Assembly (NCBI GenBank): GCA_944324225.1
Contig: CALUVL010000004.1
Span: forward strand, 62,001-126,000
Source of the DNA: Candidatus Gastranaerophilales bacterium
GTDB taxonomy: Bacteria > Cyanobacteriota > Vampirovibrionia > Gastranaerophilales > Gastranaerophilaceae
DNA length: 64,000 nucleotides
Direction: 5' to 3'
The notes under the pieces are model-generated. The model worked only from the letters and a program-made list of their open reading frames with translations, made no database searches and was not told the DNA's origin. The position numbers and the translations under genes are program-made. Positions within the stretch are counted from its first letter, which is position 1. Each line of letters starts with the position of its first letter. Shown one piece after another: positions 37,541-61,822 of the stretch.

Positions 37541-40096
<2,556 letters not shown>

Positions 40097-40153: not shown

Positions 40154-40315
40154 TTATTTATCTTTTGTAACGTCGGCTTTGGTTATTTTCACTGTATTGT
40201 TTTCGACTTTTACTTCAAGCATGTCAGTTTCTGGGTTGACGTCAATCAATTCAAGGAGTGTTTTGGGCATAAAAAGTGCCCATCCGCTGCCGGAGCGGGA
40301 AAGTTTTTTCTTCAT
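40154..40315 (-). CDS. Small AbrB/SpoVT-type DNA-binding protein
   Basis: A 53-residue gene: ATG at 40315 with GGAG 7 bases upstream. It reads MKKKLSRSGSGWALFMPKTL, then LELIDVNPETDMLEVKVENN, then TVKITKADVTKDK. The pattern 'GsGWAl.mPktLLeli.vnPe.D..ev.ve...vkItk' is the swapped-hairpin AbrB/MazE fold, which dimerises on DNA. Its near twin is at 60482 (WAL, VNPxTDM and ITK/ITR are shared). Both sit divergent from an almost identical-N-terminus prepilin, which suggests a regulator-target pair (inference). Confidence 0.8.
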   Translation of the reverse strand: MKKKLSRSGSGWALFMPKTLLELIDVNPETDMLEVKVENNTVKITKADVTKDK

Positions 40316-40327
40316 AGTGCTGTCTCC

Positions 40328-40362
40328 ATGATTTTATACCTACAATCACTTTACAAAATCAT
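40328..40362. promoter_or_regulatory. Inverted repeat between AbrB-like and prepilin genes
   Basis: ATGATTTT (40328-40335) and AAAATCAT (40355-40362) are perfect 8-bp inverted arms 19 bases apart, in the divergent spacer. A plausible operator. Promoter boxes are likely among TTATACT and TATAAT-like words up to 40430. Confidence 0.5.
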
Positions 40363-40436
40363 AGAACTTAGTTATACTTTAATTAAATACTTATATTATA
40401 ATTATTTAATATATATAATATCAGAGAGGAACTGCT

Positions 40437-41129
40437 ATGAAAAAAGGTTTTACAATGGCGGAAGTGTTGATAACCCTTGGGATTCTCGGAGTTGTTATTG
40501 CAATGACACTGCCTGCTTTAATCGGCAAATATCAAAAAATCGTTGCGACAACACAATTGAAGAAAATATATAATGTTATTTATAATGCATATCTTATGTC
40601 AGTAGAAACAAACGGTGAGTCAGAGGGATGGCTCTATCCTATGATAAAAGAAGGCGCTACGGTAAACAAAGAGCAGGTTGAATTTTTTTATAAGCTTTAT
40701 TTTGCTCCTTTTATAAATTTTAAATCTTCAAGCTATAAGCGCTATAAAGTTTATAATTTTAATGGCGAAACTACAAATATCGAAAAACAACAAAGAATTG
40801 GTTACGGATATTTTGTCAGAAATCCTGACGGTATGTGTATGATTTTATGGGCAAATAATCAGTATATGGTTTTTACGGCGGATTTAAACTGTGAAAAAGC
40901 TCCCAATGTCGCAGGAAAAGATGTATTTGATATTTTGGAATTGTACTGGCAAGGTGATAAAACTCTGGTTGTACCTTGGCTGTCATACATTAATAACGGA
41001 ACAAGAACAAGATCTGATCTTATAGAATCATGCAAATCCCAAAATTATGCAAATGGTGTGCCGGGCACATGTTTTACTTTATTTGTTTATGACGGAATGG
41101 AGTTTAAGAAGGATTATCCGTGGAGGTAG
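40437..41129 (+). CDS. Type IV pilin-like prepilin
   Basis: A 230-residue prepilin with leader MKKG and core FTMAEVLITLGILGVVIAMT (Gly-Phe cleavage, Glu5). The globular part contains FTADLNCEKAPNVAGKDVFD, a variant of the D-N-x-K-PN-G-D-F motif, and it ends YDGMEFKKDYPWR, closely like the prepilin at 59695. AGAGAGGA precedes the ATG. Divergent from an AbrB-like gene, with an operator-like repeat in the 121-base spacer. A minor pilin or pseudopilin; the partner secretion machinery is not in this window. Confidence 0.88.
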   Translation: MKKGFTMAEVLITLGILGVVIAMTLPALIGKYQKIVATTQLKKIYNVIYNAYLMSVETNGESEGWLYPMIKEGATVNKEQVEFFYKLYFAPFINFKSSSYKRYKVYNFNGETTNIEKQQRIGYGYFVRNPDGMCMILWANNQYMVFTADLNCEKAPNVAGKDVFDILELYWQGDKTLVVPWLSYINNGTRTRSDLIESCKSQNYANGVPGTCFTLFVYDGMEFKKDYPWR

Positions 41130-43706: not shown

Positions 43707-44966
43707 ATGGGATTTGACTACACAGTGAGCGGAAAAGACAAAGGCCTGACGTATATATTTTTGGAACAGGCAAAAAAGCATGCAGGCTTTGACTCAAACC
43801 AGAAGATAGACTGGAATAAAGTCATGTCAGTATTTGATGAAATTCAGAAAGAAGAGCAGGCCGAAGGTCAGAAACTATTCAGCGGCGGAACGGATAAAAC
43901 GCGCGCCGGCTGGGGCAAGAGTTATGTAATAAAAGCCGGCGATAAAATAAGTTTGTCAGACGAGCAGATGAACAAAATCTATGGCGCAATGGGTCTGGAT
44001 TTGTCAAAAGCGCAGCAGCCCAATCCGACGAAGCAGGTGCAGCAAACACCGCCGGCACAGAACACACCGCCGGCACAGAACACACCGCCGGCACAGAACA
44101 CACCACCGGCACAGAACACACCACCGGCACAGAACACGCCGCCTGCACAGAACACACCACCGGCACAGAACACACCACCGGCACAGAACACACCACCTGC
44201 GCAGAACACACCACCGGCACAGCAAACCCCGCCGGCTCAACAAACTCCACCGGCGAAAGATCCAAACCCGCCAAAGGCAATAACACCTGCCAAAGGAGAA
44301 GATTTGTCTAATAACAAGTCCCCGCTGGACATGCAAATGTATATAAAACGAGAAAAATATGCAAACCAGACAGTTCCAAATCCTGATGGCACAATGTACT
44401 CATACGATGAAAATGGTTATGTAGAAGAAGTATTAGACAAAGACGGCAACAAGACACAAGAGATTAACCGCAGATCAGACGGCAGTGTTGATGAATATTA
44501 TGACTACACATACGATAAAGCCGGCAACAAGACACAAGTGATTACTCGCAATTCAGACGGCAGTGTTAGTTACTATTATGACTACACATACGACAAAGAC
44601 GGCAACATAACACAAGCGATTTGGCGCAACCCAGACGGCAGTGTTAGTTACTATTATGACTACACATACGACAAAGACGGCAACATGACACAAGAGATTA
44701 TACGCGAACCTGACGGCAGTGTTAGTTACTATTATGACTACACATACGATAAAGCCGGTAACAAGACACAAGAGATTTGGCGCAATTCAGACGGCAGTGT
44801 TTATTATTATTATGACTACACATACGATAAAGCCGGCAACAAGACACAACTGATTAATCGCAACTCAGATGGCAGTGTTGATTACTATGAAGTCTATGAA
44901 TATGACCAAGATGGTAACCAGATTAGTCAAATCACATACGACAAAGACGGTAATGTAAAGGAATAA
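43707..44966 (+). CDS. Repeat protein: PAQNTPP linker plus YD-type repeats
   Basis: A 419-residue protein. Residues 1-105 are a small helical domain (MGFDYTVSGKDKGLTYIFLE, ending SYVIKAGDKISLSDEQMNKI). Residues about 113-184 are 12 near-identical hexapeptides of type TPPAQN. Residues about 258-412 are six 26-residue units of type DGSVSYYYDYTYDKDGNxTQ, reminiscent of YD (RHS) repeats, ending YDKDGNVKE. No signal peptide. Likely secreted or cell-surface, with the Pro-rich part as a spacer (inference). AAAAGGAGTATAAAA precedes the ATG. Several long shadow frames on both strands come from the repeats. Confidence 0.75.
   Translation: MGFDYTVSGKDKGLTYIFLEQAKKHAGFDSNQKIDWNKVMSVFDEIQKEEQAEGQKLFSGGTDKTRAGWGKSYVIKAGDKISLSDEQMNKIYGAMGLDLSKAQQPNPTKQVQQTPPAQNTPPAQNTPPAQNTPPAQNTPPAQNTPPAQNTPPAQNTPPAQNTPPAQNTPPAQQTPPAQQTPPAKDPNPPKAITPAKGEDLSNNKSPLDMQMYIKREKYANQTVPNPDGTMYSYDENGYVEEVLDKDGNKTQEINRRSDGSVDEYYDYTYDKAGNKTQVITRNSDGSVSYYYDYTYDKDGNITQAIWRNPDGSVSYYYDYTYDKDGNMTQEIIREPDGSVSYYYDYTYDKAGNKTQEIWRNSDGSVYYYYDYTYDKAGNKTQLINRNSDGSVDYYEVYEYDQDGNQISQITYDKDGNVKE
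44043..44258 (+). repeat. 12 x 18-nt tandem repeat
   Basis: Twelve 18-base units of the form AACACACCACCGGCACAG, coding TPPAQN. Units 1-10 are nearly identical at DNA level and units 11-12 are diverged. Copy number could vary between strains. Confidence 0.9.
44478..44945 (+). repeat. 6 x 78-nt tandem repeat
   Basis: Units begin with GACGGCAGTGTT at 44478, 44556, 44634, 44712, 44790 and 44868, each 78 bases (26 codons). The DNA is very similar between copies, suggesting recent duplication or gene conversion. The last copy diverges. Confidence 0.9.
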
Positions 44967-59694: not shown

Positions 59695-60375
59695 TTAGTC
59701 CTCTGATTCTCTGTTGTCAATCATAATCTGCCGCCACGGGTAATCTTTTTTAATTTCCCATCCGTCATATTGAATTAATCTGGCACAGGCATGGCGTTTA
59801 TCTTTAATGCTGACAAGCGGGTCATCAGCATTGCCTTTCGCGCAACTGTCAAGCAGCAATTCTCTCGTCTTTTGTTTGTAGCTTGGTGCCGAAGCAAAGA
59901 ACTTTTCCGGATAGTCCGATGCAATAGAAAATAGAAAAGAATGTCTGCCGTCATATCTTTCGATTCCGCAATATTTGATATCAGTACAGTACATAAAATA
60001 AATTAACTTTGTCGAGCTTATATAACCGTTGAATCCGCTTCCGTCCAAAAATGTAACCTGAAAATCCCGACCATTAGATTTTATTACTTCTTTATGCAGC
60101 GAACTTATATGTTTGTCAAGATACATATTGTACCAGTCTTCCAAACCTTCGCCGGACATTACCTGATCCTGTGTTGGCATCCAGCTTTGCAGTTCCCCAT
60201 TGACATTTTCTGCCAGCATAATCGCCTGCATCATGACTGTATAGAATTTTTTGAGTTTATTTGCAGTAACTTTTTTTTCGTACCCTTCCATTAGCCCCGG
60301 CAGTGTCATTGCGATAACAACCCCTAAAATTCCGAGTGTTATCAATACTTCAGCCATTGTAAAACCTTTTTTCAT
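59695..60375 (-). CDS. Type IV pilin-like prepilin
   Basis: A 226-residue prepilin, leader MKKG then FTMAEVLITLGILGVVIAMT, identical in the first 24 residues to the one at 40437. It ends YDGWEIKKDYPWRQIM and has a CTDIKYCGIERYDG stretch with Cys. The D-N-G-K-PN motif seen in others is not obvious here. AAGAGGG precedes the ATG. Divergent from an AbrB-like gene at 60482. Likely a minor pilin or pseudopilin with its own regulator. Confidence 0.88.
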   Translation of the reverse strand: MKKGFTMAEVLITLGILGVVIAMTLPGLMEGYEKKVTANKLKKFYTVMMQAIMLAENVNGELQSWMPTQDQVMSGEGLEDWYNMYLDKHISSLHKEVIKSNGRDFQVTFLDGSGFNGYISSTKLIYFMYCTDIKYCGIERYDGRHSFLFSIASDYPEKFFASAPSYKQKTRELLLDSCAKGNADDPLVSIKDKRHACARLIQYDGWEIKKDYPWRQIMIDNRESED

Positions 60376-60392
60376 AAATAAACCCTCTTAAA

Positions 60393-60400
60393 ATGTACAT
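60393..60400. promoter_or_regulatory. Palindrome in divergent spacer
   Basis: ATGTACAT, a perfect 8-bp palindrome, in the 106-base spacer between prepilin and AbrB-like gene, followed by ACATGGTATGG. A possible AbrB operator. The -10/-35 boxes are not clear. Confidence 0.35.
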
Positions 60401-60481
60401 ACATGGTATGGTTAAATGTTCTATTAGAAAATATATTACACATTTATTATGATATTGTCAAGTTAAATGTAAGGATATTGT

Positions 60482-60655
60482 ATGGATAGAAAATTGATGC
60501 GCAACGGAAACGGCTGGGCACTGTGTCTGAATGCTACCATATTGGATTTGTTGAAAGTTAATCCAAAAACCGATATGGTTGAATATACTATAGAACGTGA
60601 TAAACTTATTATCACCAGAAGTGATAGAAAAAGAGATGATATAAAAGAAGATTAA
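60482..60655 (+). CDS. Small AbrB/SpoVT-type DNA-binding protein
   Basis: A 57-residue gene starting at 60482, AAGGA 7 bases upstream. It reads MDRKLMRNGNGWALCLNATI, then LDLLKVNPKTDMVEYTIERD, then KLIITRSDRKRDDIKED. Swapped-hairpin AbrB/MazE type, paralogous to 40154 (GWAL, VNPxTDM, IIT). Divergent from prepilin 59695. No toxin gene is next to it, so it is a transcription factor rather than an antitoxin (inference). Followed 27 bases later by folP. Confidence 0.8.
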   Translation: MDRKLMRNGNGWALCLNATILDLLKVNPKTDMVEYTIERDKLIITRSDRKRDDIKED

Positions 60656-60670
60656 ATCGTAATTTTTTGC

Positions 60671-60682: not shown

Positions 60683-61822
60683 ATGAAAAATTTTATTTTA
60701 AAAGAGATTGCCACTAATGATATGGAGACCGAGCTTGAGCGTATCGGTTTTGACAAAACATACACTTCACGCGGAACCTTAAAATTTGAGTATAAGAATA
60801 TCAAGATCTATTCACTTACCCCGCCGCAGGCAAATATCCTAAAACAAACCGCACTTTCTGTCGGCGCAGACTGTGCAACCCATAGAGATGTTATAACTTC
60901 CAAAACTGAAAAAAGCGACTGTATCTTAGGCGGGAGTATTTCACAATTAAAAAAAATCGCACAAAAACTTGAAAACCAGCCGTTCGGACTGAAGAATTTA
61001 GGTGAAAATATCAGGGCATTTGCTGAATACAAAAAGCCTTCCGTAGCTACAAAAGTTGTCGGAATTTTGAACCTCACGCCGGACTCATTTTCTGACGGAG
61101 GGGAATTTTTGGACTATGACAAAGCAAAAGAGCATTTTCAATATATGGTTGAATCAGGTGCAGATATTATAGACATAGGCGCGGAATCTACAAGGCCTTA
61201 TTCAACGCCGGTTTCAGCAGAAGCGCAAATAGGCAGAATTCTTCCGATATTAAAATATGCAAAGGAAAGCAAGATTACCGTGCCTGTAAGTATTGATACC
61301 AGAAGCGCGGAAGTTGCCCGAAAATGTATTGAATCAGGCGCTGTTATAATTAACGATGTGTCAGGCTTTGATTATGACGAAAAAATGGCTGATGTGATTG
61401 CAAAATATGGTGTTAAAATTATTATTCAGCATTCTAAAGGCGACCCGCAGACTATGCAGGACAACCCTGTTTATGAAAATTTAATGGATGAGATTTATCT
61501 GAAATTAAAGGAAAAAGTAGATTTTGCCCTTTCAAAAGGAATTAAAAAAGAAAACATAATCGTCGACCCCGGAATTGGATTTGGCAAAACAAGAGAGGAT
61601 AATTTTGAAATTTTGAAACGGATAGAAGAATTTAACGGACTCGGGTGTGAGATTATGCTCGGGCTTTCACGCAAATCCTTATTAGGAATGAAAGATGAAA
61701 CCAACGAGATGAAAGATATTTTTACGGTGGCATTGAACACTCTTGCAGTAGAAAATAAAGTAGATTATATCCGTGTCCACAACGTTTCTCTGCATAAAAA
61801 ATTGCTTGAAGTTTTAAAGTGA
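60683..61822 (+). CDS. folP: Dihydropteroate synthase with N-terminal extension
   Basis: Joins p-aminobenzoate to the pterin diphosphate in folate synthesis. The 379-residue protein has an extra N-terminal part (about 1-115: IYSLTPPQANILKQTALSVG, then ADCATHRDVITSK) and then a complete DHPS TIM barrel: GILNLTPDSFSDGGEFLDYD, IIDIGAESTRPYSTPVS, IDTRSAEVARKC, INDVSGFDYDE, and the VDPGIGFGKTREDNFEIL and GLSRKSLLG loops. Extended DHPS forms occur in several anaerobes. Leaderless-looking start. The next gene is fliE. Confidence 0.94.
   Translation: MKNFILKEIATNDMETELERIGFDKTYTSRGTLKFEYKNIKIYSLTPPQANILKQTALSVGADCATHRDVITSKTEKSDCILGGSISQLKKIAQKLENQPFGLKNLGENIRAFAEYKKPSVATKVVGILNLTPDSFSDGGEFLDYDKAKEHFQYMVESGADIIDIGAESTRPYSTPVSAEAQIGRILPILKYAKESKITVPVSIDTRSAEVARKCIESGAVIINDVSGFDYDEKMADVIAKYGVKIIIQHSKGDPQTMQDNPVYENLMDEIYLKLKEKVDFALSKGIKKENIIVDPGIGFGKTREDNFEILKRIEEFNGLGCEIMLGLSRKSLLGMKDETNEMKDIFTVALNTLAVENKVDYIRVHNVSLHKKLLEVLK

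Follow-up and report, generated by a model that had tools for sequence, protein, structure and literature searches.

The stretch of 64,000 nucleotides analysed here (the window) carries two divergent gene pairs, each composed of a small regulator and a prepilin. One pair consists of prepilin 2 (59695–60375, reverse strand), which encodes 226 residues with the leader MKKGFTMAEVLITLGILGVVIAMTLP and matches PF07963, TIGR02532 and DUF6613, and of Reg2 (60482–60655, forward strand), a 57-residue clade B regulator with a predicted AbrB/MazE fold; 106 bp lie between the two divergent start codons. The original prediction had given this pair the same coordinates and orientation and had pointed to a second pair resembling it, and both are indeed present: Reg1, a clade A regulator of 52–53 residues (40157–40315, reverse strand), adjoins prepilin 1, of 230 residues (40437–41129, forward strand). 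Each regulator is followed on its own strand by a gene which anchors its slot and which is named from sequence alone, namely a folP-like gene (60683–61822, forward strand) 27 nt 3' of Reg2, and a gyrB-like gene (37541–40081, reverse strand) downstream of Reg1. A third relative of the regulators lies on a different contig of the same genome and has no prepilin neighbour. The window also encodes, at 43707–44966, a protein in which a series of PAQNTPPAQNTP repeats precedes YD-type repeats.

Regulators and their neighbourhoods

The GWAL and VNPxTDM motifs, described beforehand as common to both regulators, are found in Reg1 as well as in Reg2, and the two proteins are identical at 24 of 52 residues (46%, E 5e-18). 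They are homologous and are old paralogues, each belonging to a clade that is spread over the family. Neither matches PF04014 (MazE/AbrB, SpoVT-AbrB) above the curated cut-off, and 3 of 70 regulator relatives match it at E 0.01. The predicted fold (pLDDT 91) has the order E-E-H-E-E, i.e., two beta hairpins around a helix, and a structure search of the PDB returned the MazE antidote as top matches with a probability of 1.00 and a TM-score of up to 0.83, the E-values being only 0.04, which is weak since the protein is short; other structural matches were AbrB superfamily proteins, including the AbrB N-domain. On this model, both regulators would have the AbrB/MazE swapped-hairpin fold. The dyad operator suggests that they may bind DNA as dimers, and the search by sequence gave no relative of solved structure, its one match (E 0.93) being taken as chance.

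The regulator locus set comprises 78 loci, of which 76 belong to relatives and two are our own; most of them fall into clades A (with Reg1), B (with Reg2) and C, and the mean regulator identity is 0.89 within and 0.46 between clades (47 loci). The relatives' loci come mostly from metagenome assemblies of the Gastranaerophilales type, and some, which are titled Erysipelotrichaceae or Muribaculaceae, are taken as misbinned or misnamed. A class-wide sample of 289 genomes yielded a regulator match at E 1e-12 in 112, all but two of which (110 of 112) belong to the window's own family. Double-domain regulators of about 105 residues with two AbrB-like halves also occur (L017/L027, L025, L029 and L030), and at least L027 among them has a divergent prepilin.

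The divergent layout of regulator and prepilin is not due to chance, because a divergent prepilin leader lies within 700 nt at 50 of the 63 loci of clades A, B and C (each with at least 450 nt of upstream sequence), and no genuine leader is found on the other sides of the regulator at the same loci. The count of 50 scores as leaderless both L121, which has a stop inside its leader, and L146, whose leader lies at 687 nt; the comparison of regulator–prepilin pairs scored L146 as leader-bearing and so contains 51 loci. A single match on another side, an antisense FSVLEVITS within folP, was discarded as not genuine. Among the 16 loci of clade B, eight have no prepilin partner, and six of these (the sub-group L100–L104 and L107) are divergent from an rsmH-like gene. 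Two clade A regulators and one of clade C (L159, L147 and L160) are divergent from genes of a surface-sugar type, which by our own reading of the sequence resemble sugar-transferring or capsule enzymes.

Such other partners, together with the MazE-like fold and a viral relative (L261) preceding what we read as a Doc/Fic-toxin-like gene, would be in keeping with a solitary or decayed antitoxin, whose proximity to a prepilin is incidental hitch-hiking. We regard this as improbable, since the divergent prepilin recurs at most of the clade loci with no genuine one elsewhere nearby, and the operators are conserved around the prepilin promoter. No toxin gene lies beside Reg1 or Reg2, the neighbours being a prepilin and gyrB, or a prepilin and folP, and neither pair shows the toxin-beside-antitoxin arrangement of a type II toxin-antitoxin system. 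As for a phage carrier, two viral loci encode relatives of the regulator, and there is no prepilin among their listed neighbours.

Prepilin bodies, slots and leaders

Both prepilins have a leader with the GFxxxE processing motif and score above the cut-offs of PF07963 and TIGR02532; for prepilin 2, the scores are 22.6 bits against 21.2 for PF07963, 23.6 against 16.3 for TIGR02532 and 27.3 against 24.3 for DUF6613. The original prediction derived the two pairs from a duplication and noted a shared leader and KDYPWR end, and the prepilins do have an identical 26-residue leader as well as the KDYPWR terminus in common. These features are nevertheless weak evidence of a special tie between the two, because both recur among the other prepilins of the genome: among 30 own prepilin-like matches, the identical 22-residue leader core is found in 5, DYP close to the end in 15 and KDYPWR in 4, the first and last counts including prepilins 1 and 2 themselves. 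Beyond the leader, the two are 26% identical, which is the median of 351 own-genome pairs (the 27 longer of the 30 prepilins used, from 45 prepilin-like matches in the genome). The body of prepilin 1 is 84% identical to that of an unlinked, regulator-free paralogue (G000:C3:146466) and 55% identical to G000:C4:13152; the FT codons inside the leader mark the start of its DNA similarity to the former, and the upstream regions of these two genes look unrelated. Six prepilins of the same genome (L035, L037, L040, L042, L043 and L047), the bodies of which are mostly unrelated (0.22–0.37), share 28–132 nt 5' of the leader at 82–95%, and this region often reads GGGGxP..KLLKGFT.

Across the locus set, unrelated prepilins are found beside the same regulator, one of the two outcomes that the original prediction had named as refuting a co-duplication; at L113, for example, the regulator is identical to Reg1 over 48 compared residues and the prepilin is 26% identical. 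Among 130 locus pairs with regulators at least 93% identical, the prepilins are below 35% in 102 and at or above 60% in 22, and the mean prepilin identity is 0.29 within regulator clades and 0.26 between them. The other outcome, incongruence of the regulator and prepilin trees in place of the matching phylogenies expected of a co-duplication, was obtained as well. Mapped on the prepilin tree, the regulator clade needs 11 changes; the minimum would be 2 and shuffling gives a mean of 17.5, and in this respect the prepilin tree departs from randomness. Well-supported prepilin groups are mixed, such as L127 (A) with L142 (C), which lie on separate contigs of the same assembly, and L120 (C) with L117 and L161 (A). 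These tree and pair comparisons used 47 of the 51 prepilin loci, the broken L091, L093, L109 and L143 being left out. Prepilin and regulator distances are correlated (Mantel r 0.23, p 0.0002); the mixing is not complete, and the residual association arises in part through near relatives.

Duplication of one ancestral regulator–prepilin pair, with both halves diverging together, would explain why the regulators are homologous, why the layout is the same and why the prepilins have an identical leader and KDYPWR end. We consider it very improbable, as both the leader and this terminus occur commonly in the genome, the prepilin bodies are no closer than the genomic background, the closest kin of prepilin 1 sits at an unlinked site, and the regulator clades span the family with unrelated prepilins. 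Background-level bodies, unrelated partners elsewhere and incongruent trees contradict the co-duplication of whole pairs; a simple duplication does not seem to account for the two pairs, and it is the regulators alone that are old paralogues.

The slots themselves indicate how the prepilins vary. The gyrB gene adjoins Reg1 or its kin at 14 of the 78 loci, and in two congeneric gyrB slots (L124 and L136) the flanks are 0.87–1.00 identical up to some 340 bp beyond the prepilin, with windows of 0.67 and 0.83 and a ragged alignment end of 0.22 farther out; the prepilin body is mostly at 0.34–0.45, apart from 0.60 directly behind the leader and a single window of 0.61, and the breaks fall within the leader and just past the stop. 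Regulator and prepilin occur together at both anchors: in the gyrB slot of 13 genomes, a divergent prepilin is present in 5 of 5 with Reg1 (four kinds of prepilin) and in 1 of 8 without it, and in the folP slot of 14 genomes, in 4 of 4 with an intact Reg2 and in 0 of 10 without it (one-sided Fisher tests, 0.005 and 0.001, respectively). The folP slot of G010 keeps a truncated regulator with, as we read the sequence, an apparent 3' remnant of a prepilin, and in G007 the Reg2-linked prepilin (L005/L091) has three in-frame stops beside an intact regulator. The folP-slot prepilin is orthologous in the three congeners G002, G007 and G013 (about 84%, 82% and 65%, respectively); judged by these similarities, the prepilin of Reg2 has been passed on together with its slot, and the folP slot is vertical within the genus. 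Outside the genus, near-identical Reg2 regulators (L093, L094, L096 and L097) have other partners, and folP was not found beside these four. Within the genus, prepilin exchange is demonstrated at the Reg1 slot but not at that of Reg2.

We tested whether exchange is peculiar to slots with a regulator and rejected the idea, since two regulator-free control slots turn over too, their prepilins being replaced or lost. At the TerC slot, the prepilins of 5 genomes are 0.26–0.30 identical to our own, the slot's two prepilins give 0.39 and 0.74 in G011, and G007 has a short prepilin only; at the gltX slot, identity is 0.49–0.50 in 5 of 12 other genomes. Prepilin turnover in place is general here. A partial leader precedes the true one in 6 of the 50 prepilin loci (L117, L125, L128, L142, L153 and L154), ending in FTLAE or FTLSE 57–335 nt before it, in frame in five of the six. 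These leftover leaders would fit incoming prepilins having been joined at the resident leader; their origin through repeat-element insertion is also possible, and some N-terminal extensions at these loci contain peptides resembling translated dispersed repeats.

Promoters and operators

The predicted promoter of prepilin 2 (TTGACA, 17 bp, TAATAT; 60433–60461, reverse strand) agrees with the consensus at 10 of 12 positions and is conserved in clade B. Around its -35 lies the putative clade B operator, TTACATTTAAC-TTGACA-...-TAAATGTG (60438–60472, reverse strand; 15-locus profile), which at Reg2 comprises two inverted ACATTTAA-type half-sites. The conserved parts of this operator are the ACATTTAA half-sites and GTATGTA, and clade B also conserves the motif TTACATTTAACTTGACA with further ACATTTAA-type half-sites. 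The clade B alignment reveals a second operator-like element 3' of the -10 (60392–60419), which contains a ATGTACAT palindrome and a GTTAAATGT half-site. This palindrome, which the original prediction had singled out in the spacer, is present at 60393–60400 but is kept in one of three orthologous loci (L092; not L091 and L095), and it was rejected as an operator core on account of this poor conservation. A candidate Reg2 promoter (TAGAAA, 17 bp, TATGAT; 60425–60453, forward strand), proposed from a consensus match only (9 of 12), overlaps the promoter-operator region of prepilin 2.

The prepilin 1 promoter (TTTACA, 17 bp, TATACT; 40350–40378, forward strand) likewise agrees with the consensus at 10 of 12 positions, and its -35 is overlapped by the right arm of the putative clade A operator, ATGATTTTATA-N13-TACAAAATCAT (40328–40362), the clade consensus being ATGATTTTRTA-N13-TACAAAATCAT over the -35. 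The clade A operator is an inverted repeat, and at the 32 loci used (of 34 rows, two being too short) pairing between its arms is seen in 324 of 352 cells; when the arms were dealt out among the loci, a control that does not allow for their relatedness, the mean was 305.7 pairing cells and none of 5000 trials was as high as 324. One arm position pairs in all 32, as G-C in 25 of them and as T-A in 7. The conserved motif of clade C is ATAACATGTACTTTACA.

As had been noted, the spacers of the two pairs differ, and operator scans covered the window and 30 own-genome prepilin loci. The A profile reaches 51.4 at its own site in the window, against 4.4 or less at any other position there, and the B profile 51.7 at its own site and -0.6 at the next best, the own sites having been among the sequences that built the profiles (from which L134, L146, L162 and L165 were left out for A, and L098, L105, L106 and L166 for B); at the 30 prepilin loci, the two profiles score no higher than 3.2 and 4.5, respectively, at any other site. 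The idea of insulated regulator-operator pairs fares well here: the operators are clade-specific, and insulation is supported, at the level of these motifs, because each occurs within the window at its own pair alone.

Proposed mechanism and relation to known systems

It is likely, in our judgement, that the two pairs are independent regulator–promoter sockets, each with a self-repressing local regulator, a private promoter and an exchangeable prepilin body, and not products of whole-pair duplication. A small protein with a predicted AbrB/MazE fold would bind an operator of its own between the two divergent genes, as suggested by dyads that are clade-specific and covarying. Because the operator covers the prepilin's -35 and belongs to the intergenic region that both genes share, the regulator would repress the prepilin and probably itself too. 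Activation of the prepilin could be argued from clades A and B having conserved operator parts on the upstream side of the -35 too, and from regulator and prepilin being kept and lost together; it seems unlikely, as in clade A the -35 hexamer lies beneath the inner arm of the dyad and the two prepilin promoters come near the consensus, which fits repression better. Reg1 and Reg2, as old paralogues with different operators, should not act on each other's promoters, since the motifs are exclusive to their own pairs. At a fixed position in the chromosome, the regulator, promoter and leader start would persist as one prepilin body takes the place of another, the joins falling inside the leader and just after the stop, as seen at the Reg1 slot; whole-pair duplication would not be the source of the pairs, because the prepilin is the variable part, replaced behind a stable regulator and promoter.

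A wider proposal, which we put forward tentatively as a possibility, is that Gastranaerophilales keep fixed prepilin sockets with constant 5' parts (the promoter and the leader start), the bodies being swapped by recombination at the conserved DNA of the leader. Some slots would add an AbrB-like repressor with a private operator, a newly acquired pilin would receive insulated, ready-made control, and the half-leader scars would be by-products of exchange. A bacterium with dozens of pilus subunits may in this way control newly acquired ones privately, with its regulation left unrewired. At least three small regulator-operator pairs that appear to be orthogonal are available in this system, and the natural replacements between conserved flanks make diversification of the pilin repertoire testable in uncultured gut Gastranaerophilales.

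Within the literature library searched, we recognised no report of AbrB–prepilin pairs in this lineage. Reg1 and Reg2 are like MazE/AbrB (SpoVT-AbrB, swapped-hairpin) proteins in size, in the beta-beta-alpha-beta-beta order, in their best structural matches (MazE and the AbrB N-domain) and in having dyad operators beside their own gene, but they differ in having neither a toxin partner nor a Pfam match, their presumed target being the divergent prepilin. Prepilins 1 and 2 share the leader and the hydrophobic N-terminal helix with type IV prepilins and pseudopilins (PF07963, TIGR02532), whereas their bodies match no named pilin equivalog above cut-off, and prepilin 2 matches DUF6613. In Pseudomonas aeruginosa, alleles of pilA are known to replace one another at a fixed locus, where, as here, different pilin genes lie between conserved flanks; the present case differs in that its genome has several slots and about 45 prepilin-like genes, that the conserved flank holds a dedicated regulator and promoter, and that the break falls within the leader.
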